Assembly (NCBI RefSeq): GCF_000485595.1
Contig: NW_014577167.1
Span: 185,577-240,186, forward strand
Origin: Priapulus caudatus
Lineage: Eukaryota; Priapulida; Priapulimorpha; Priapulimorphida; Priapulidae
DNA: 54,610 bases
Direction of reading: 5' to 3'
Part shown: positions 1 to 53,714 of the stretch, one piece after another
Layout of the letters: every line of letters begins with the position of its first letter
Position numbering within the stretch: the first letter of the stretch is position 1
The notes under the pieces: generated by a model
What the model was told of the DNA's origin: nothing
Seen by the model: only the letters and a program-made list of their open reading frames with translations
The model's database searches: none
Program-made: the position numbers and the translations under genes

Positions 1-393
1 GCTATTTGAAACAAAAGGCAGCTACTAACGCGTTATTGCTAACTCGATTTGTTCGATACGTACGCTAACTCGAATACGTACGATTTGAGCTCAAGTTGGT
101 TGCGTTACGCGTAGTAAATCGTAGGTATTATAAGGCTAGTAAATGACGAATTTCCCTTGCTTATTGTTGTCACACTCCTCCCTATTATGTACTCCTGATA
201 TACATGTATAGTTGTATACAGATGGCACCCTTCTTAAGTCCAATGAGGAGTCCGACTTGATAGCTCTCAAGCACTGGATCATTTGAAAATACACCTCCTT
301 GCAAACAGTTACATTACACAAAATAATAGGCTCAATTAATTTTGAAAAAACTACACATCAACACGCCACTCGAACATTCTATCGATTAAACAA
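1..393. other. 3' flank of BLM, no feature seen
   Basis: No coding exon, RNA or transposon end is recognisable here. On the minus strand, downstream of the BLM stop, I find no AATAAA or ATTAAA signal. This leaves open that the BLM transcript continues beyond the left edge of the window. Confidence 0.5.
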
Positions 394-13210
<12,817 letters not shown>

Positions 13211-26600: not shown

Positions 26601-28178
26601 ATTTGAATAATATTAAAGATTATTATATACAATATAAATATATACTATAACAGTGATGAAAATTAACACTCGCCCAGTCGCCCGAGGCGAGTAGAAATAA
26701 TGTTGGACCCCAGAATTTCATTGAAAAGTCACACAGAATGCGTTGCTTTGTTTTTATAGTTAAACATTCAATAATCAGTGGAATCACTACGATTTCAGTG
26801 CTATGATTACGCCACTACAATTCGCTCACGATTTCCTAGAATTTTGATACATTTTTTGACCACCAGAATGAAAACTAATTCACTCTATCCTCCTAGGACT
26901 AGGAGTAAGAGTATCGAGTAGGAACACGTTGATACACGTTCACGGGGGCGGGCATTTTTCATGTTGATTCCCTGGTGAAACGTAAACCGGGCTCTCATTG
27001 GTTCAGGGCTGGGAACTCAGCCAGTGAGAGCATGTGTTGTATATGGTGTTGTATCTGACCAGAGCATCAATGCCACCAATGCAATAAATTTATATGCTCT
27101 GATCTGACATTGCCACTGATCATTGGGAAGGAACGTGGGTTGTAACATGGTTGTAATTAGATACAATAATGTAACCCAACAAGAGTAGCACCCTACTCTT
27201 GTTGGGTTACATTATTGTATCTAGGTTGTAATACAATCCAATGCAATCTAATAAAAATTGTGATCAATACTAAATAAAATATATTGAATTTTTTTAAAAA
27301 TATTGAATAAAATGCCATCAATTTGCTGTCCCCGCTAATCACAGAATTTGATCCAGTCCCAGCAATAAATTTATGGAACGAGCAGGGTGTCAGGTATAGG
27401 TCAAAGAAGCCGACTTTTAAAAATAAAGATACAATGCTAGAAAATGCATTGAAAATTGTTGAGAATAATGGCGCTGCTGATAGAACAGGGGCTCAAACAG
27501 ACACGATGATGACGGCTGATGATGATAAAACAGGAAGTGACAATGGGGACTGGATGGACTCTGACAATGACATGGAAACTGTTTTCAAACAATTGATTGA
27601 GTAACTACTCTAATTAATGGCGTAATAAAAACAAATGTGGAAATTGTTGAAGTACTTTTACTTCTTGTCACTAAGGTATAGTACGGAGTCCCCTAAATAA
27701 ATATTTGTATTGGCCACTCGTCGTGCACGTTTCATCCTGTTTCACTGTTTGAATTTTTCATGAAGATTGAGAATGGCCATGATTCATGAAGTTTATTAAC
27801 TCAGTCACATTGCTTCAGCAAGTGAATATATAGACATAGATTACGCGTGACTAGTTGTACTGATAATCATAATGGTAACAATCTGCACCTGTCGAACACA
27901 TTATTCATAACATGCTAACAGAATTTTAATTCTCGTTTTCGCGTGGTTTCTAGAATGTTTGGAAGCCAAAGCGCGGCCATTTTGAAAGCATGACTCACCT
28001 TCGTAGCATGAATGTTCCCCTGCTGCACCTTTTTCCCATGCTCACGCTTCACGTTCTGATCTATTAAGAAAGTATGTAAATTGGTAACACTGCAACAATA
28101 TCCCGACATGATACATGAATTACTTTGTCAAAAAACATGAATATCATACTTACTCAGCACGACAATCGGAGCATGCAT
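20694..28178 (-). CDS. CCT3: T-complex protein 1 subunit gamma (CCT3), 14 exons
   Basis: Exons: 28154-28178, 27999-28060, 26005-26118, 25627-25723, 25083-25203, 24378-24458, 24071-24176, 23713-23862, 23234-23366, 22832-23012, 22436-22622, 22040-22180, 21706-21837, 20694-20798. All phases join, giving 544 aa (human CCT3 545). It is an ATP-dependent subunit of the cytosolic TRiC/CCT ring that folds actin and tubulin. Visible: [15 protein letters not shown] near the N terminus, the nucleotide motif [18 protein letters not shown], the catalytic GDGTTS loop, [34 protein letters not shown] and [15 protein letters not shown] near the C terminus. Gamma rather than another subunit is supported along the whole length. 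Exons 1-2 with flanks recur at 34541-34720, across the N gap. Confidence 0.97.
20896..21650. mobile_element. piggyBac-like MITE, CCT3 intron 13
   Basis: Flanked by TTAA on both sides (20892-20895, 21651-21654), with short inverted ends CACGTTC / GAACGTG, the hallmark of piggyBac insertions. Near the right end ACTCGTGGATCYGCGGGG occurs twice as a subterminal repeat. It is 755 bp and non-coding, so a transposase would be needed in trans. Confidence 0.8.
24567..24921. mobile_element. hAT-like MITE, CCT3 intron 5
   Basis: Ends TAGTGTTGTCAATCG and the complement of TAGTGATGTCACGATC, with a perfect 8-bp duplication ATGAAGAC (24559-24566 and 24922-24929). It is 355 bp, with GATCGGTTAC-type subterminal repeats. 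The 8-bp duplication fits hAT. Confidence 0.85.
27158..27223. mobile_element. 66-bp arms-only Mutator-like element, CCT3 intron 2
   Basis: About 31-nt inverted arms starting TAGATACAATAATGTAACCC surround a loop of 3-5 nt. It is flanked by the perfect 9-bp repeat GGTTGTAAT (27149-27157, 27224-27232). The termini equal those of the 426-bp MITE at 16006-16431, so this is a minimal form with almost no interior. Confidence 0.9.
27323..27604 (+). pseudogene. Possible C-terminal fragment of a hAT/ZNF862-like protein
   Basis: An open frame antisense within CCT3 intron 2, with [20 protein letters not shown] followed by an acidic tail. A good acceptor (CCCGCTAATCACAG) lies just before AATTTGATCC, as if this were a last exon. 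The segment recalls C-terminal tails of domesticated hAT-derived proteins, but that is a weak pattern match. No upstream catalytic part is visible here, so I treat it as a TE remnant. Confidence 0.3.
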
Positions 28179-28524
28179 TTTCGTAAACTTTTCGGCACAA
28201 CGGAGCTGCACTACCGCCACCTGAGATCAATCTTTTTTTCAAATTACAAATTTTATTCTAAACTTTCCTAACGCGTAAGTAAATCTAGTATTTACACTAA
28301 ATATTAGTACTAAAACTATCTCCGCGTAGTTAAAAGTCATTTTTATTAGATACATATGATATTGACTTCACTTCGTCATTTCATAACGATGCATTATAAT
28401 AACATCACCATCGTCTGCTCTGCTCATTCCGGCGATATACGATCTACAATGTGAGACGAGACTCAGCCCGAAACAGCAGGCGGTTAAATTGTACCTGCAA
28501 CGTACAGTACACACTACACAGCAT

Positions 28525-28973
28525 CAGGGGCGGATCCAGAGAGGGGGTCCGGACCCCCCTTTTTACCACCAAAAAAGGAAAAAAGCATACACACGCACGC
28601 GCGCACGCACGCACGCACACACACACACAAACTTCTCTCATATTGTCTCCATAAAAAAAATCTTGTTTAGCGCTAGTTTTTCTGATAAAGATTTACTTAT
28701 ATATATGTAAATTCGTTATAAAAATCTAGAAATGGGCAAAGAGGGGTCCGCAGGCGTCCGCGGGACCGGATCTGATAGATTTTTGCATTCTAGACATCAA
28801 AATTACTGCTCAGATACTCTCAGAATGCACCATTTTTTTCAAAAAAATCTTGGGGGAGGTCCCCCTAAGTCGCCTTCGGCAGCTTTTTAAAACACCAGAA
28901 AAAGTAAGCAGGAAAAAGTGCCCTTTATTTCTTCCTGGACACCCCCTTTTCAAGAATCCTGGATCCGCCCCTG
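28525..28973. mobile_element. hAT MITE present only in copy A
   Basis: Perfect inverted ends CAGGGGCGGATCCAG bound 449 bp containing a short CA/CGCA microsatellite. The flanks CACAGCAT and CACATCGT match at 6 of 8 positions. The corresponding place in copy B (about 35050) lacks the element, so it is an insertion difference between the copies. Confidence 0.85.
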
Positions 28974-29732
28974 CACATCGTCAAGTGTAGTATTCTTTCA
29001 AAAAGTGCCCACATCTAATATTCTAATGACTCACTCCAACAGGCTCAGTCTTACAGAATTTTCCTATTTGGTGAGGTCATTCATGTTAATATACATGCAT
29101 GTGATGTATACGTCCTAAAATAAATAATATTTTATTTAAGATTATACATGGAGAGCGCACACTCATCAGCAGTTTGATATGAAAATGTTTATACCTGTCT
29201 CATTTGAAATAATTTTAAGGTGGCAAATATTTCCATATTTTATAACGTTCACATCTACCCAGTACATTTAATTATGTCAAAGTAAACATTATCAAAAGAA
29301 TATTTTCTATTATGGACTCTTGATATTATATTGTTGGAATTATGCATTGGAAGTGCATCGCACACACTTGAGAGAAGCTATCCATAAAAAAACGCTATTC
29401 AAATGTTTTAAGTTCAAATCAATTGTATTTCAAATGATAACAGATATCCATGAGTAGGCAATGGCAATCAACCTGCTGTAGTTACCAAATCAAACAATAA
29501 TTTTCTAACGCGCAATCATTTTTCTTGTAATAGATATATTATCATATATATAAAAAATTACTTTTAAATAAAGATACATATGCATCTATATTATTTCTAT
29601 GATCGATTACATCGTTTAGTTTAGGAATAAACACGTTGCATGCAGGAGCATATCCAGAGACATGATACAAGATTGCGTGGCACAGCTTTGTTGTTGATCC
29701 CGAGCGCTGCGCGCAGATGAGACCATAGATAT

Positions 29733-32139: not shown

Positions 32140-33108
32140 TTAAAACAATCGTTTCTTTTTACTTTTCTTAATCCTCTTCACCTCCTCCTTTGCCAGCTTC
32201 TCCTCTAGTTCCCTCCTCCTCGTCAACTCTGCCGTCTCCTCCAAGTTTTCTCTGGGTGACTTGCTCGGACTAACGCCGGGTGTGACAGAGCCCGCCACCA
32301 GCGATGGCGGCAGTCGCTCGTCGCCCCAGGATACGCCCGTAACGACGGACGTGTTGTTTTCTGTCACCTCTTCCTCGTTGTCTGTGCTCGACTCTGGCTC
32401 TCTGCACAGCCAGCGTCGCTTCAGGGTCAGTTCTCCGTAAAGACGCCGCACATCGTCCGACGAGAACGCATCTCGGCCGCCGGCAGCGACCGCCGCGTCG
32501 AAGCCCTGTGACGTCGCCATCTGGTGGCGGAACGCCGTTGCATCAAACGCCGGCGTGAGCAGTCGCCGTTTAGACAGCAGCGCCCCCTGCGATGTGTAGT
32601 CGGCAATTTCTGTGTCCTTGCGGGCAAGCAGTTTCTCGAGCTCGGTCTTCTGTCGGTGCAGTTCGCTGACTGTTGTCAGGAGAGGAATGACCATCATCTC
32701 ACTTGTGCTCGCGCAAGGCAGTCTTCTGGCTGAAAATGTCCAGACAAATCTGACACTGGCTAATTTCGATGTGAAATCGATGTCCAAGTTGTCATTGCTC
32801 TGAGTCACGTTGAACGTTACACCCTCAACAACCTGCGCACTGATGACCGACTCTATGTGGTGCAATATTCTTCTCAGCGGTGCCTCCAAGTGTGGATTCA
32901 TGGTTTTGGTTTGTCCTAAGATATCATCTGCTTGTGCCTTGCATTCGAACAAACCATCATTGTAAAACCACATCAAGGAATAGCTACTCTCGGAGAAAAT
33001 CATCTTCACAAAGGTAGGCCCCATGCACCCATTGACCTGGAATGGCTGCCAAACAGCACTGGCCAAATCAGACTTGTGTTGCCTTCTCCACTCTATGTAT
33101 TCAGCCAT
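32140..33108 (-). CDS. NHEJ1: NHEJ1 / XLF (Cernunnos), intronless, copy A
   Basis: 322 aa (human 299). It is a non-homologous end-joining scaffold that pairs with XRCC4-LIG4 and Ku to bridge DNA ends in the nucleus. Visible: an N-terminal head domain with SYSLMWFYNDGLFE, then the coiled-coil stalk (about 142-174) with ELEKLLARKDTEIADYTSQG, matching human [20 protein letters not shown], then a disordered tail ending KKSKKKRLF, like the human Ku-binding KRKKPRGLFS. I chose the ATG at 33108; the frame is open further upstream but has no earlier ATG. No intron is present. The ATG lies 55 nt beyond the BBIP1 stop on the same strand. Confidence 0.9.
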   Translation of the reverse strand: MAEYIEWRRQHKSDLASAVWQPFQVNGCMGPTFVKMIFSESSYSLMWFYNDGLFECKAQADDILGQTKTMNPHLEAPLRRILHHIESVISAQVVEGVTFNVTQSNDNLDIDFTSKLASVRFVWTFSARRLPCASTSEMMVIPLLTTVSELHRQKTELEKLLARKDTEIADYTSQGALLSKRRLLTPAFDATAFRHQMATSQGFDAAVAAGGRDAFSSDDVRRLYGELTLKRRWLCREPESSTDNEEEVTENNTSVVTGVSWGDERLPPSLVAGSVTPGVSPSKSPRENLEETAELTRRRELEEKLAKEEVKRIKKSKKKRLF

Positions 33109-33163
33109 GATTGGCGATGTGGTGCTTATGCTTGATAATAGTTGTTTGTACTCAGTCACTTTA

Positions 33164-33439
33164 TTATTCAAGAGTTAGTCTATCAACATGACTCTCTTCT
33201 CCTCCCCCTCCTTCTCCTCCGGTAGACTCCGCTATGGTAGCTTCCTCTGCTTGAAGACTCTCTTCCTGCTGTTTAACCTTCTCCTGTGCATCCTTCTGCA
33301 TCTTCTCTAGCTTCTCAAGTGTTACAGATTTCATAGGAAGCAGTTTTGGTTTACACAGCACGAGTTTGGGTGTGTCTTCTTCGTAGAGTAGACCATGCTT
33401 CGGAAGCACCTCTTGATATGCATTTCTCGTTTCAGACAT
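33164..33439 (-). CDS. BBIP1: BBIP1 (BBSome-interacting protein 1), copy A
   Basis: 91 aa (human 92). It is the smallest BBSome subunit, needed for assembly of the complex that carries membrane cargo to cilia. The core [13 protein letters not shown] followed by [20 protein letters not shown] matches human EVLPKQGPLFVED and [20 protein letters not shown]. The C-terminal tail is Glu/Gly-rich and lineage-specific. A strong splice acceptor (TCCTTTTTTCGCAG) lies 2 nt before the ATG, implying a 5'UTR intron or a trans-splice site. An AATAAA (33160-33165 complement) overlaps the stop, directly before NHEJ1. Confidence 0.92.
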   Translation of the reverse strand: [91 protein letters not shown]

Positions 33440-34720: not shown

Positions 34721-35188
34721 TTTCGTAAACTTTTCGGCACAAACGGAGCTGCACTACCGCCACCTGAGATCAATCTTTTTTTCAAATTGCAAATTTTATT
34801 CTAAACTTTCCTAACGCGTAAGTAAATCTAGTATTTACACTAAATATTAGTACTAAAACTATCTCCGCGTAGTTAAAAGTTATTTTTATTAGATACATAT
34901 GATATTGACTTTACTTCGTTATTTCATAACGATGCATTATAATAATATCACCATCGTCTGCGCTGCTCACTCTGGCGATGTACGATCTGCAATTAAATGT
35001 GAAATGTGAGACTCGGCCCGAGACAGCAGGCGGTTAAATTGTACTTGCAACGTACAGTACACATCGTGAAGTGTAGTATTCTTTCAAAAAGTGCCCACAT
35101 CTAATATTCTAATGACTCATTCCAACAGGCTCAGTCTTACAGAATTTTCCTATTTGGTGAGGTCATGTACATATCCCATGCATGTGAT

Positions 35189-35227
35189 CAGGAGTAGATA
35201 ATAGGGGATCCCTATTATCTACTCCTG
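35189..35227. mobile_element. Nano-palindrome element copy 2 (39 bp, polymorphic)
   Basis: A perfect palindrome with 18-nt arms CAGGAGTAGATAATAGGG around a 3-nt centre. Perfect 7-bp repeats ATGTGAT flank it (35182-35188, 35228-35234). The equivalent site in copy A (29099-29105) has a single ATGTGAT and no element, so both the insertion and its target duplication are directly documented. Confidence 0.92.
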
Positions 35228-35922
35228 ATGTGATGTACGTCCCAAAAGAAATAATATTTTATTTAAGATTATACATTAATAGTGGAGAGCGCATACTCAT
35301 CAGTAGTTTGATATAAAAATGTTTATACCCGTCTCATTTGAAATAATTTTAAGGTGGCAAATCTTTCCATATTTTATAACGTTCACATCTACCCAGTACA
35401 TTTAATTATGTCAAAGTAAACATTATCAGAAGAAAGTTTTCTATTATGGACTCTTGATATTATATTGTTGGAATTATGCATTGGAAGTGCATCGCACACA
35501 CTTGAGAGAAGCTATCCATAAAAAAACGCTATTCAAATGTTTTAAGTTCAAATCAATTGTATTTCAAATGATAACAGATATCCATGAGTAGACAATGGCA
35601 ATCAACCTGCTGTAGTTACCAAATCAAACAATAATTTTCTAACGTGCAATAATTTTTCTTGTAATAGATATATTATCAGTGATATTATCATATATATATA
35701 TATATAAATTACTTTTAAATAAATATCTATCGATTACATAGAAATTATATAGATACATATGCATCTATATTATTTCTATGATCGATTACATCGTTTAGTT
35801 TAGGAATAAACACGTTGCATGCAGGAGCATATCCAGAGAGACATGATACAAGATTGCGTGGCACAGCTTTGCTGTTGATCCCGAGCGCTGCGCGCGGATG
35901 AGACCATGACCATAGATATAGA

Positions 35923-38319: not shown

Positions 38320-39288
38320 TTAAAACAATCGTTTCTTTTTACTTTTCTTAATCCTCTTCACCTCCTCCTTTGCCAGCTTCTCCTCTAGTTCCCTCCTCCT
38401 CGTCAACTCTGCCGTCTCCTCCAAGTTTTCTCTGGGTGACTTGCTCGGACTAACGCCGGGTGTGACAGAGCCCGCCACCAGCGATGGCGGCAGTCGCTCG
38501 TCGCCCCAGGATACGCCCGTAACGACGGACGTGTTGTTTTCTGTCACCTCTTCCTCGTTGTCTGCGCTCGACTCTGGCTCTCTGCACAGCCAGCGTCGCT
38601 TCAGGGTCAGTTCTCCGTAAAGACGCCGCACATCGTCCGACGAGAACGCGTCTCGCCCGCCGGCAGCGACCGCTGCGTCGAAGCCCTGTGACGTCGCCAT
38701 CTGGTGGCGGAACGCCGTTGCATCAAACGCCGGCGTGAGCAGTCGCCGTTTAGACAGCAGCGCCCCCTGCGATGTGTAGTCGGCAATTTCTGTGTCCTTG
38801 CGGGCAAGCAGTTTCTCGAGCTCGGTCTTCTGTCGGTGCAGTTCGCTGACTGTTGTCAGGAGAGGAATGACCATCATCTCACTTGTGCTCGCGCAAGGCA
38901 GTCTTCTGGCTGAAAATGTCCAGACAAATCTGACACTGGCTAAATTCGATGTGAAATCGATGTCCAAGTTGTCATTGCTCTGAGTCACGTTGAACGTTAC
39001 ACCCTCAACAACCTGCGCACTGATGACCGACTCTATGTGGTGCAATATTCTTCTCAGCGGTGCCTCCAAGTGTGGATTCATGGTTTTGGTTTGTCCTAAG
39101 ATATCATCTGCTTGTGCCTTGCATTCGAACAAACCATCATTGTAAAACCACATCAAGGAATAGCTACTCTCGGAGAAAATCATCTTCACAAAGGTAGGCC
39201 CCATGCACCCATTGACCTGGAATGGCTGCCAAACAGCACTGGCCAAATCAGACTTGTGTTGCCTTCTCCACTCTATGTATTCAGCCAT
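38320..39288 (-). CDS. NHEJ1: NHEJ1 / XLF, copy B
   Basis: Same 322-aa frame as copy A with only a few coding differences, for example Lys to Asn in the head domain (TSKLAS versus TSNLAS) and Thr to Ala in the tail (ESSTDN versus ESSADN). All features described for copy A are kept, including the Ku-binding-like C terminus. It is probably the second allele rather than a paralogue. Confidence 0.88.
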   Translation of the reverse strand: MAEYIEWRRQHKSDLASAVWQPFQVNGCMGPTFVKMIFSESSYSLMWFYNDGLFECKAQADDILGQTKTMNPHLEAPLRRILHHIESVISAQVVEGVTFNVTQSNDNLDIDFTSNLASVRFVWTFSARRLPCASTSEMMVIPLLTTVSELHRQKTELEKLLARKDTEIADYTSQGALLSKRRLLTPAFDATAFRHQMATSQGFDAAVAAGGRDAFSSDDVRRLYGELTLKRRWLCREPESSADNEEEVTENNTSVVTGVSWGDERLPPSLVAGSVTPGVSPSKSPRENLEETAELTRRRELEEKLAKEEVKRIKKSKKKRLF

Positions 39289-39343
39289 GATTGGCGATGT
39301 GGTGCTTATGCTTGATAATAGTTGTTTGTACTCAGTCACTTTA

Positions 39344-39619
39344 TTATTCAAGAGTTAGTCTATCAACATGACTCTCTTCTCCTCCCCCTCCTTCTCCTCC
39401 GGTAGACTCCGCTATGGTAGCTTCCTCTGCTTGAAGACTCTCTTCCTGCTGTTTAACCTTCTCCTGTGCATCCTTCTGCATCTTCTCTAGCTTCTCAAGT
39501 GTTACAGATTTCATAGGAAGCAGTTTTGGTTTACACAGCACGAGTTTGGGTGTGTCTTCTTCGTAGAGTAGACCATGCTTCGGAAGCACCTCTTGATATG
39601 CATTTCTCGTTTCAGACAT
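39344..39619 (-). CDS. BBIP1: BBIP1, copy B
   Basis: Translates identically to copy A over 91 aa, with the same acceptor upstream of the ATG and the same 55-nt spacing to NHEJ1. Upstream of it, sequence beyond the copy A break is available, including the Mutator-like MITE at 39720, which begins about 100 bp upstream of the ATG. The 5' non-coding exon was not identified. Confidence 0.9.
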   Translation of the reverse strand: MSETRNAYQEVLPKHGLLYEEDTPKLVLCKPKLLPMKSVTLEKLEKMQKDAQEKVKQQEESLQAEEATIAESTGGEGGGGEESHVDRLTLE

Positions 39620-46838: not shown

Positions 46839-48679
46839 CTACTACAACTACTACCATTACCAACATATATGCAATAGGGGGCTTCCAACAAGAGGTTGTT
46901 ATTCTTCAAACAGGCATCATTGTGACAGCCGAACATGTCACTACTCTCTAACAATTTTTCATAAATAAATCTCTACCTGGACAATCGCATATAATCGAGT
47001 TGTTAGGCGCCTGCAGCCTTTTTTGATAGAACGAAAGTTTGCTAACACCGTGTGCTTTCTTCCTGAAACCAATAGGCATCTCACTGCTAGCATGACGGAA
47101 TTCTTTTACATCCTAGATGAAAAGATTGGAATGGTGAGTGCATTATTCAATAGCACAATATAAATATATAGAATTTAATGAAACACTTGACTAATTGCTT
47201 AATGACCGAAGAGGCCACTGCTATCAGTAATCATCGTCCATGGAATCATACTTCGCTAACGAAGACATTTCATTGTGGACGGCCGTGCCATTCCGAGAAA
47301 CTGGCACGCGTTATGTCGTGCCGTATATACTCACGCTATCTGAGACGTAAACGAACCACGCGCCTGTGCGTGATTCAGTGACACACTGATCTCTACTATA
47401 CTAACTACTAAGACTAAGTTATAGTATAGTAGAGATCAGTGGTGCGTGTCCGTATATCACGTGGACTGTTGCTATGGAAACGGTTAATAAGAAATACGGA
47501 CGTATACTTATGCGAGTACAGCATCGCCTTCACGTAAGCAAATTTGATTTATAGAACGTATATAGTATCCAGAATAGCCCCACAGCAAACTACTTTTTAA
47601 TCAATACCACCCCTATACAGCAGCTCAGAGGAAATCGCATGTAATATATCAGCTTTAATGATCCAGTACGTGTTTACAGGGGCGTAGCCAGCCTTTCCAA
47701 GAGGGGGGATTCCTTCCAGGAGAGGGGATTCCAAACCTACTATATACTAATAAAACTTCGTTAAAAGTTTCGTCTCATGCTTTTATATACATACTGTATG
47801 AGATATGTGCTATTTTGATACAAACCAGGGTGGATTCCGGAATGCCTGGAATCACCCCTGGCTACGCCCCTGGTTTATATTGTGTAGTATTACAGCTATC
47901 TTGCAGACATATAGGACAATATATAGTCGAAAAAAACTTATTAAATTCTTATATATGTAAACGTAACGAAAACCAACGTTCAACATATGTTATAGCCTAC
48001 GACGTTCCGTCGACACCGAATTCACGGTATCCGCAGGAAAGCATAGATGTGCAGATAATAAGCGCTGTCGCAACATACGAAGAGCCGAGTTAAACAATAT
48101 AGGGGCACAAATTGCTTCTAGATATTACATCGACACCAACATATTATCAGGCGTGAATAACAGCAAACATTGTATATATACAGCTGTAATATTATACAGG
48201 CGCGATTGGGCGCACGAGGCACACATGAGTGAACCGCCGTGATCGGCACTAACAATTCGCTCTATATTCCATATGCCTCGTGCCTCTCGCTAATGTTCGA
48301 TGTTTCTAACTCCGAGGGCCGACTTCTGTGTACGCCACAGAGGCTCCTCCGCCTACTGTCACTGTTTTTCTCCTTTTCGGCGGGACCTTCTAACATATTC
48401 CGCCAGGCTCTACTGATATAATAAGAAAAAGCTCTATGATGTAATAAAAAAACTCATCCAATTTTTGGTCGTTTACCAGATTTAACGGGAAGTTGCGGCC
48501 ACCCAGAGATAATACGCCACTATCACGGAAACGAGTATTGCTGCTTGAGAAATGCAGTTCTATTATAGAAGCCTTAGAAGTATTTATACAGTTATTTCGA
48601 ACTTTCAAAATTTCAGGGCGGAGACTACGAATCCGAGGATGAGAGACAAAGTCGGCAGAGCGGACTTGGAATAATATGA
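42703..48679 (+). CDS. C1orf21-like predicted N-myristoylated protein, 5 exons
   Basis: Proposed exons 42703-42849, 43881-44161, 46116-46225, 47076-47133 and 48617-48679, giving about 218 aa. The start MGCGRSTTL is a myristoylation plus palmitoylation signal (Gly2, Cys3), predicting membrane anchoring. The C terminus reads MTEFFYILDEKIGM/GGDYESEDE, matching the human C1orf21 tail EFFRMLDEKIEKGRDYCSEEE; the middle is acidic and not recognisably conserved. Exons 3-5 join in phase with canonical sites. Exon 2 contains a G-run (44004-44047) across which the frame slips: QNYLADVPRMPSLGEDALLY upstream and ITESESVDTGDDVP downstream need one base more or two fewer. Alternative exon 1 donors exist at 42774 and 42868. 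The molecular function of this family is unknown to me. Confidence 0.65.
44283..46860. repeat. 2.6-kb block of successive simple repeats
   Basis: In order: (TCAC)n 44283-44890, (CA)n to about 44960, poly-C 44988-45019, more (TCAC)n to about 45065, GT-rich 45137-45285, A-rich 45294-45530, GT-rich to 45650, (TGTC)n 45680-45905 and (CGTC)n to 45970. After a non-repetitive stretch containing exon 3 (46116-46225) come CTG/ACC triplets 46262-46510, (ACT/TAA)n to 46590 and (CAC/CAA)n 46706-46850. The many long open frames here are artefacts. Confidence 0.95.
47384..47441. repeat. 58-bp imperfect palindrome
   Basis: Arms starting CACTGATCTCTACTATACTA pair with the complementary right half, around a short TAAGAC-type centre. 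No target duplication is visible. It is in intron 4 of the C1orf21-like gene. Confidence 0.7.
47677..47872. mobile_element. hAT-like MITE, 196 bp
   Basis: Ends CAGGGGCGTAGCCAG and CTGGCTACGCCCCTG are exact inverted repeats, of a type common in animal hAT families. Subterminal GGGGATTCC motifs. The flanks share only a GTTTA-like stretch, so the duplication is imperfect. It is in intron 4 of the C1orf21-like gene. Confidence 0.75.
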
Positions 48680-50550
48680 ACTATAGCGCAAATATACGGT
48701 TTAATGAGGTTCCACGCGCACGAAGCCATCCCACTCTTATCGGAGTAACAAGTGCGTAGTGCGCAGAGGAAGTCTGATACCTTTCTGCTCTCCGCGCGCA
48801 TGCAGCACACCGCCGACCGCGTGGCATTTAGAAAGCTGCTGTCAGTGTAAACCAAAGGCGATGAACATCACGGCTATAGGTATAGTGCACTCGATTTTAT
48901 TTTCATGATCACTCGTCTAACGTTACACAATACGTATTTCTCGAACTAAACAGCAGGTTGGCCGTAACACGAGAGTGATTCTGCTGCGTCGCGTAGCAAC
49001 GAGCGTGCAATTGATGCAGTCGGCTGACGGCAGTTTGAATCGGCGTTGGTGACAGCGACAGTCAGTTCAACTGCCAACTGAGAAATGTCAACAAAGAAAT
49101 AAATAAACAGGATACATGGGCTACCGCTGCGAGTTGAGTTTCCTGATTTCCTGCTTCGTTTAATTATTCACGAATGTTAAAAATGTTCTTTCGACTCTGG
49201 TCAAGAGCAGATAATAACACATTATGTGTTATTATCTGCTCTTGCTCTGGTTTATATGTCTGGGACCTCAAAGCGAACAAAATGTAATATCGGAACGCAC
49301 AACGTTAGACAGTGGCACGGTTATGGCAGTGCAGGGTAAACACATGTGGGCCTGTTAGAAATATCGTCTGTGTCGACAATGCTCTTCGTCTCACCCTGCA
49401 CGCCTCGCCTCGTCGACGAAACAGCGGCAGTGTGCCCGGCTACATCGGATTTTCCTTTCGCGCGTCTTGCCGCTACAAGAATACTAATTATAACGACACC
49501 GCGTTAATCACGCGACTCTCAAATCACCGCTGGCCAATATTCGCGCATCTTTTCACGGAGGACTCGCGTGCTCAGCATCGAGAGACGATACCCTGCGCAT
49601 CGGCGTCTCGCGGCACGCACGGGAAATCGTCACCGAGTCGAATAACTCGAAGCACTCGGCACTCGAGATAATTATTGGCCATGGTGATGAGTGCAATCGC
49701 CCGCGGATAAAGAACGCTGTAATCAGCGTCAAAATTAATTACGTGCTTACATTCACGATGTGCGCTGCCCTGCAGGTAGTAGCTGGGAAGCTCACGTATA
49801 GTAGCTGGGTTAATATAGCCGGCATCTGAGATCGATAACTAACAAATCGGCCGGGAGGCACTGATGGCAGAAGCGAGCGCGACGAGGCATACATCAATAG
49901 TATAGAACATTCCCTCACCTTCACCTGGGCGGACGACCACCTCCGACAACCCCTACGTGGGCGGGCGGCAACCTCCAAGTGGGCGGGTCGACAACCCCTA
50001 CGTGGGCGCGGTACCCTTCCTAAATGCGGAGGAGGGGGAGTGGCCACCAACTAACGTATGAGAACGACCACTTCTAGATGGACGGAAGCAACCACCCTTA
50101 CCTGTGCGAGCGTCAGACAACTGATGACGTCACATGAAAAACTTTATTACTTCTTCGAAGCGGATTTTAGATTTAATGATGACAGCAGATACGTTTGCTG
50201 TTGTTCACCGATTTAGCATACTTGCCCGATGTTGACATTTAGAGCGTATGCAACGGTCGGCGTTCTATCCTGCTACCGCACACATATGGCCGGGTACCAT
50301 ATCAAGCTTCATCGTGGCAAACCTTGCCTTGAATGTCTGCCGAGACCTGCGCTACTGTAGCGTAATGCACTAGTCAATTGACACCCCCACCCCCGACCCC
50401 CGGGACGGGTGGGGGAATTAACGGGGATATGCGGGGGATTTAACGCGCATTTGACAGCGTAAATTTACCGGGGGGGGCGGGGAATTTAATGCGTACCTTG
50501 AATAGCGGGGCATATATAGCGGGGGATTTAACGCTGAACCGTTAAACAAG
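48680..50550. other. Intergenic with palindrome and minisatellite
   Basis: No gene recognised. It holds the 43-bp palindrome at 49202-49244, a GC-rich minisatellite at about 49920-50015 with units like CAACCCCTACGTGGGCGGGC, and G-rich repeats (GGGGGATTTAACG-like) at 50400-50535 just before the next gene start. The 49312-49671 open frame shows no recognisable protein. Confidence 0.5.
49202..49244. mobile_element. Nano-palindrome element copy 3 (43 bp)
   Basis: A perfect palindrome with 20-nt arms CAAGAGCAGATAATAACACA around TTA, flanked by the perfect 7-bp repeat CTCTGGT (49195-49201, 49245-49251). Ends agree with copies 1, 2 and 4 at most of the first 14 positions. Confidence 0.88.
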
Positions 50551-53676: not shown

Positions 53677-53714
53677 CAGGAGTAAATAATGGGAATTTTC
53701 ATTATTTACTCCTG
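53677..53714. mobile_element. Nano-palindrome element copy 4 (38 bp)
   Basis: Arms CAGGAGTAAATAATG around an 8-nt centre. It sits in TA-rich sequence, so the target duplication is ambiguous: ATATAT on both sides (53671-53676 and 53715-53720). The ends match the other three copies. Confidence 0.7.

Follow-up and report, generated by a model that had tools for sequence, protein, structure and literature searches.

The 39-bp palindrome at positions 35189-35227 of the analysed stretch of Priapulus caudatus DNA (54,610 nucleotides, hereafter the window) is probably a non-autonomous cut-and-paste DNA transposon, an ultra-short MITE made of two terminal inverted repeats of about 20 bp that lie back to back and are moved in trans. 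The family to which it belongs is a real, extreme MITE variant, apparently new in size and form. The evidence comprises its structure, the target-site duplications and their motif, the copy number, a pair of filled and empty sites, and longer relatives with the same ends.

Direct reading and a script agree that the insert is CAGGAGTAGATAATAGGG-GAT-CCCTATTATCTACTCCTG, with 18-bp arms and a 3-bp centre. The first-pass annotation had described a perfect palindrome; the inverted arms hold, the perfection does not, as 36 of the 39 bases pair and the central GAT is unpaired. Pairing extends to 43 bp (35187-35229) because the flanking duplication itself begins and finishes with AT. The longest hairpin arm with a loop of up to 8 bases is 20 bp here versus 12 bp in 100 dinucleotide shuffles of the window, which rules out a chance palindrome. 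Folded as single-stranded DNA, the palindrome reaches -17.3 kcal/mol (z -8.5), and none of 200 shuffles folded equally well.

The window contains a segment in two copies, A and B, which makes a filled and an empty version of the same site available, as had been claimed: ATGTGAT occurs twice around the insert in copy B and once, without the insert, in copy A, and the correspondence is exact at the junction. This comparison covers one site only, and the neighbourhoods are not identical, with small differences adjoining the empty site (GTATACG in A, GTACG in B). A run of 532 N lies between the copies, which may be two haplotypes that the assembler joined end to end instead of a true duplication; they provide a filled/empty pair either way. 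Together with the genome-wide copies described below, the pair supports the earlier claim of recent mobility by precise insertion with a target duplication. Each copy of the duplicated segment, on either side of the 532 N, also carries one 343-aa reading frame of the XLF type (DNA end-joining factor; 32140-33171 and 38320-39351, minus strand). A second insertion difference is a stretch of about 460 bp in copy A (28514-28973, ending ...TGGATCCGCCCCTG) that is absent from B. A 44-bp palindrome at 35737-35780 (CATAGAAATTATAT...) is flanked by the 8-bp duplication ATCGATTA; its left part is deleted in copy A, which therefore does not represent an empty site.

Features of the palindrome, its empty counterpart and the other family members in the window.
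Feature	Position	Strand	Basis or remark
Left target duplication ATGTGAT	35182..35188		7 bp, from sequence
Left arm (end) CAGGAGTAGATAATAGGG	35189..35206	+	Hairpin scan and folding; identical to the outer 18 bp of long elements such as L030 and L037
Unpaired centre GAT	35207..35209		Hairpin scan and folding
Right arm (inverted end) CCCTATTATCTACTCCTG	35210..35227	-	Hairpin scan and folding
Right target duplication ATGTGAT	35228..35234		From sequence
Empty target site, single ATGTGAT, copy A	29099..29105		Copy A versus copy B
Family member, 51 bp, ends CAGGGGTAGATAAT / CAGGGGAAGATAAT, 7-bp duplication TTACGAT	2771..2821	+	Window scan
Family member, 43 bp, 21-bp arms starting CAAGAGCAGATAAT, 7-bp duplication CTCTGGT	49202..49244	+	Window scan
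Family member, 38 bp, ends CAGGAGTAAATAAT	53677..53714	+	In AT-rich repeat; only ATATAT (6 bp) on both sides
Single end of a long fold-back element, non-coding, same family (CAGGAGTACATAATAGGGAGGAG...)	1..197	-	Remainder left of the window, where the next 3000 bases are N

A scan of the window for pairs of short inverted ends whose flanks repeat exactly uncovered further members of the family. The 51-bp and 43-bp members and the palindrome in copy B all have 7-bp duplications and ends close to CARGRGYARATAAT. Four different arm sequences occur among the short members of the window, and the arms within one member are more alike than the arms of different members. The arms of the 51-bp member are imperfect (perfect over 6 bp only), and it has a single, diverged relative elsewhere in the genome, and so does not prove that the unit as such has spread.

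Several other elements were seen in the window. A second, unrelated palindromic family with ends TAGATACAATAATGTAACCC and different centres is represented at 27158-27223 and at two loci elsewhere (L059:425-500 and L015:184-275); members of 66 and 76 bp have the 9-bp duplications GGTTGTAAT and CCTTCTAGA, and L015 holds a 92-bp variant. An element of 196 bp (47677-47872) with 14-bp ends CAGGGGCGTAGCCA and the 5-bp repeat GTTTA presumably resembles a hAT5-type MITE. A 937-bp stretch at 10510-11446 has ends CAGGCTTTCA and the 7-bp repeat TTGTATA, and inside it lies a 77-bp palindrome (11253-11329).

The terminal 14-mer CAGGAGTAGATAAT occurs at 1,951 exact places (971 + 980) in the 385-Mb assembly, and its reversed control at 0 + 1. 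We took the first 100 of these places in contig order and paired convergent exact ends. Forty-six ends pair into 23 short elements with lengths of 35, 36, 37, 39 (five cases), 40 (six), 41 (two), 44, 46, 47, 61, 77, 77, and 90 bp; 19 of these elements fall at 35-47 bp, with a concentration at 39-41 bp (13/23). Five longer pairs measure 275, 398, 609, 775, and 793 bp, giving 28 pairs in all, and 44 ends have no exact partner. Among 16 of the unpaired ends whose surroundings were read (L148-L163), at least six belong to short elements with one mutated arm (L148, L149, L154, L157, L159, and L162). If the first 100 places are representative, extrapolation gives a genome total of about 450 short elements with two exact ends. 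The paired-end patterns had 0 matches in viral contigs and 0 in prokaryote genomes.

Tabulating the flanks of genome-wide copies, as the first-pass annotation had proposed, showed an exact 7- or 8-bp duplication in 17 of the 23 short elements in genome order: 13 have 7 bp and four have 8 bp, against 0 and 1 of 506 cross-paired flanks. Three of the remaining six are one base off at 7 bp. The 7-bp duplication first noted is thus confirmed, though not as the only length, and the outcome that the annotation had named as refuting it, genome-wide copies without 7-bp flanking repeats, did not arise. A similarity search with the window site, in which 40 of 201 candidates were scored and 39 places beyond the window were taken, yielded 37 short elements after four duplicates were dropped; this set is biased by the query and its flank, and its duplications are 7 bp (16), 8 bp (16), or have one mismatch (5). 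Arm length is 19-20 bp in 28/37 elements of this ranked set versus 10/26 of a genome-order set that takes in members with longer interiors and mutated arms. The targets have the form ATN3AT or ATN4AT. Among 53 exact duplications pooled from all the short sets, the second base is T in 29 of the 30 that are 7 bp long and in 21 of the 23 that are 8 bp long, and the last base but one is A in 27 and 22 of them, respectively; part of this collection is biased to the flank of the query, and its genome-order members show the same form.

There are two arm subtypes, ending in ATAGGGAA and ATAGAAGA, with centres of 0, 1, or more bases. The zero-centre 40-mer of subtype ATAGGGAA is present at 42 places (control 0), at least seven of which sit within one larger repeat. 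Zero-centre palindromes could have originated repeatedly, so shared centres alone are no proof of one founder. In L080, L081, L083, L085, L086, L088, and L025, the 40-bp palindrome occupies a fixed site (ATGTTGAT) in the larger repeat and was copied along with it; any copies of the repeat that lack the palindrome would represent further empty sites.

The first-pass annotation had also suggested a search for longer elements with the same ends that encode a transposase. Longer elements were found; all those seen are non-coding fold-back elements, and no transposase-bearing partner was among them. They are about 0.5-0.9 kb long and have the outer 18 bp in common with the palindrome, and two of them, by their sequences, consist mostly of long inverted repeats. 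A search with the solo end at window position 197 (minus strand), in which 40 of 1,156 candidates were scored, led to 35 examined loci, 27 of them with a pair of ends. The duplications are 8 bp in 16 and 7 bp in five; among the other paired loci, three have none, two have one mismatch at 8 bp, and one has only 6 bp. An initial set in which all long elements had 8 bp (9/9) came from a query with a TGTATAT flank, and the wider sample has 7-bp duplications too. A 7.2-kb pair of ends on contig C7 was rejected as an autonomous element as its flanks differ.

These long relatives raise the alternative that transposition is confined to the 0.5-0.9-kb fold-back elements, or to a longer parent, and that the palindrome is a scar: unstable long inverted repeats would lose their interior in place, leaving about 20 bp per end within the original duplication. 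Short and long forms have the end sequence, the 7/8-bp duplications, and the AT-type targets in common; studied hAT elements require long ends; the centres are variable, and the filler in L131 repeats pieces of the end, like end-joining scars. Lengths between 47 and 400 bp are few but present (61, 77, 77, 90, 275, and 398 bp in 28 pairs). If short forms were collapsed long ones, however, a long form would be expected for every arm subtype. The second subtype, ATAGAAGA (AGAAGA), has 173 exact 20-mers (80 + 93; control 0), and in its first 100 places all 34 pairs span 40-130 bp (28 at 40-51 bp, ten at exactly 40 bp), the 130-bp pair (L134) being two adjacent elements; 32 of these 100 ends are unpaired and could belong to long copies. 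By comparison, five of the 28 pairs of the general 14-mer lie at 275-793 bp. As judged from these end lists, which overlap, the difference in length speaks for movement of the short form as such rather than for collapse, as support and not as proof. The sharp length peak at 39-41 bp is unlike random deletion, the short members of the window have four different arm sequences, and collapse would require that, after the divergence of A and B, a long element entered the site in copy B and then lost its interior. We regard such a scar as unlikely. An assembly or library hairpin artefact is strongly disfavoured and has hardly any probability: palindromes can form in libraries, and 532 N lie between copies A and B, but hundreds of copies stand at different places, each with its own duplication, and they come with a target motif and longer relatives that have the same ends.

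For the ultra-short transposon, we propose the following course. A transposase of the DDE type, made elsewhere in the genome and acting in trans, would recognise the 20-bp ends of an element that consists of two terminal inverted repeats of about 20 bp and a centre of zero to a few bases. Its cuts at the target, ATN3AT or ATN4AT, would be staggered by 7 or 8 nt, and gap repair after insertion would produce the 7- or 8-bp duplication. Such an enzyme would need only about 20 bp of each end, and we infer that the short form itself, not only a long parent, moves. New short forms would arise when end joining removes the interior and leaves about 20 bp per end, sometimes with filler; the filler-like centres, of which the one in L131 repeats end pieces, suggest this kind of birth. 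Counting against the proposal, no transposase with these ends was found among the hAT and P loci checked, and six of the 23 short elements lack an exact 7/8-bp duplication.

DNA has a persistence length of about 150 bp, and a 40-bp duplex is far below it, so the two ends of one unit could hardly be looped together in the usual way. It is conceivable, if doubtful, that the transposon amounts to little more than its 20-bp end and that the units of about 40 bp are mobilised by an unusual route, for example, with the paired ends coming from two separate copies or by way of a hairpin intermediate, the arms being kept identical by one arm templating the other. Hermes requires about 220 bp of each end in cells (PMC10368747), a demand that makes an enzyme of the Hermes type a poor candidate for moving 39 bp.

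Two superfamilies were considered as the source of the transposase, and we lean, short of proof, towards a hAT-like rather than a P-like enzyme. The ends of hAT elements often begin with CAG, and 144 matches to the hAT dimerisation domain are present in this genome. A hAT variant with 7/8-bp duplications is a tentative choice, with a somewhat less than even chance of being right. The target nTnnn(n)An equals the preference of Hermes, 5'-nTnnnnAn-3', and the 8-bp duplications with T second and A second-last are likewise hAT-like (PMC10368747); the motif is present here, and the 8-bp length in part of the elements only. Duplications of 7 bp have been described for hAT7 of rust fungi, but hAT duplications are usually 8 bp only (PMC12730594), in contrast to the mixture of 7 and 8 bp in the palindrome family, and Hermes and Tol2 require long ends (PMC10368747). 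No hAT gene is tied to the ends of the family: at 30 of the 144 hAT loci (about 91 kb, within about 1.5 kb), no end with fewer than two mismatches to the motif was found.

A transposase of the P superfamily is rather improbable. The genome has 26 P-type domain matches, and end-like motifs (1-2 mismatches) lie 3' of two of the three P genes checked, but no matching 5' end with a duplication was found upstream at the two loci followed, and at C1289 the two motifs enclose a separate stretch of 573 bp with TAGATT on its flanks. Covering the 3' side of three and the 5' side of two of the 26 loci, we saw no complete pair of ends, and no P gene is tied to the ends of the palindrome family. Galileo is a fold-back element with long inverted repeats, as are the long relatives here, and its end sequences differ from those of the family. 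The short elements do have the 7-8-bp duplications of this superfamily; Galileo duplications within a single genome are 7 bp and, rarely, 8 bp long (PMC4168063), a mixture as here, at a likewise palindromic target, which is, however, GTANTAC and not ATN3AT.

The link to Dada elements put forward earlier fails. Although Dada duplications of 6-7 bp overlap the 7-bp class of this family, which has 7 and 8 bp, Dada has no terminal inverted repeats, only short sub-terminal ones, and inserts in snRNA or tRNA genes (PMC3706591). The arms of the palindrome family, 15-21 bp long, reach the very end of the element, unlike those of Dada, and a scan of the window gave no Rfam match and no tRNA. Bacterial REP sequences are moved by a single-strand transposase, are not known to leave a target duplication, and are prokaryotic, unlike the present family with its clear duplications. 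They are comparable as palindromes of 20-40 bp in high copy (PMC3733652).

The family is like MITEs in being non-coding, with terminal inverted repeats, target duplications, high copy number (1,951 exact ends, with elements of 35-90 bp), and longer relatives whose ends are the same. Cut-and-paste transposition is indicated by inverted ends with target-site duplications at independent sites and, at one site only, by an empty site with a single target copy. MiteFinderII defines and searches MITEs at 50-800 bp with internal sequence (PMC6245586); the long relatives fall within this range, but 19 of the 23 short elements are 35-47 bp long with little or no interior. Among the titles and abstract openings listed, from a collection with few subscription papers and without Repbase, no eukaryotic palindromic transposon of about 40 bp is described, which does not establish novelty.

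Independent movement of units of about 40 bp, if it occurs, would put the lower size limit of DNA transposons in eukaryotes very low and, given the 220 bp or so per end for Hermes, would pose a mechanistic puzzle. Annotation tools that start at 50 bp would miss such units, which may be commoner than thought, and each of them adds a strong hairpin to the genome. With the filled/empty pair and the hundreds of copies, the question can be tested directly.
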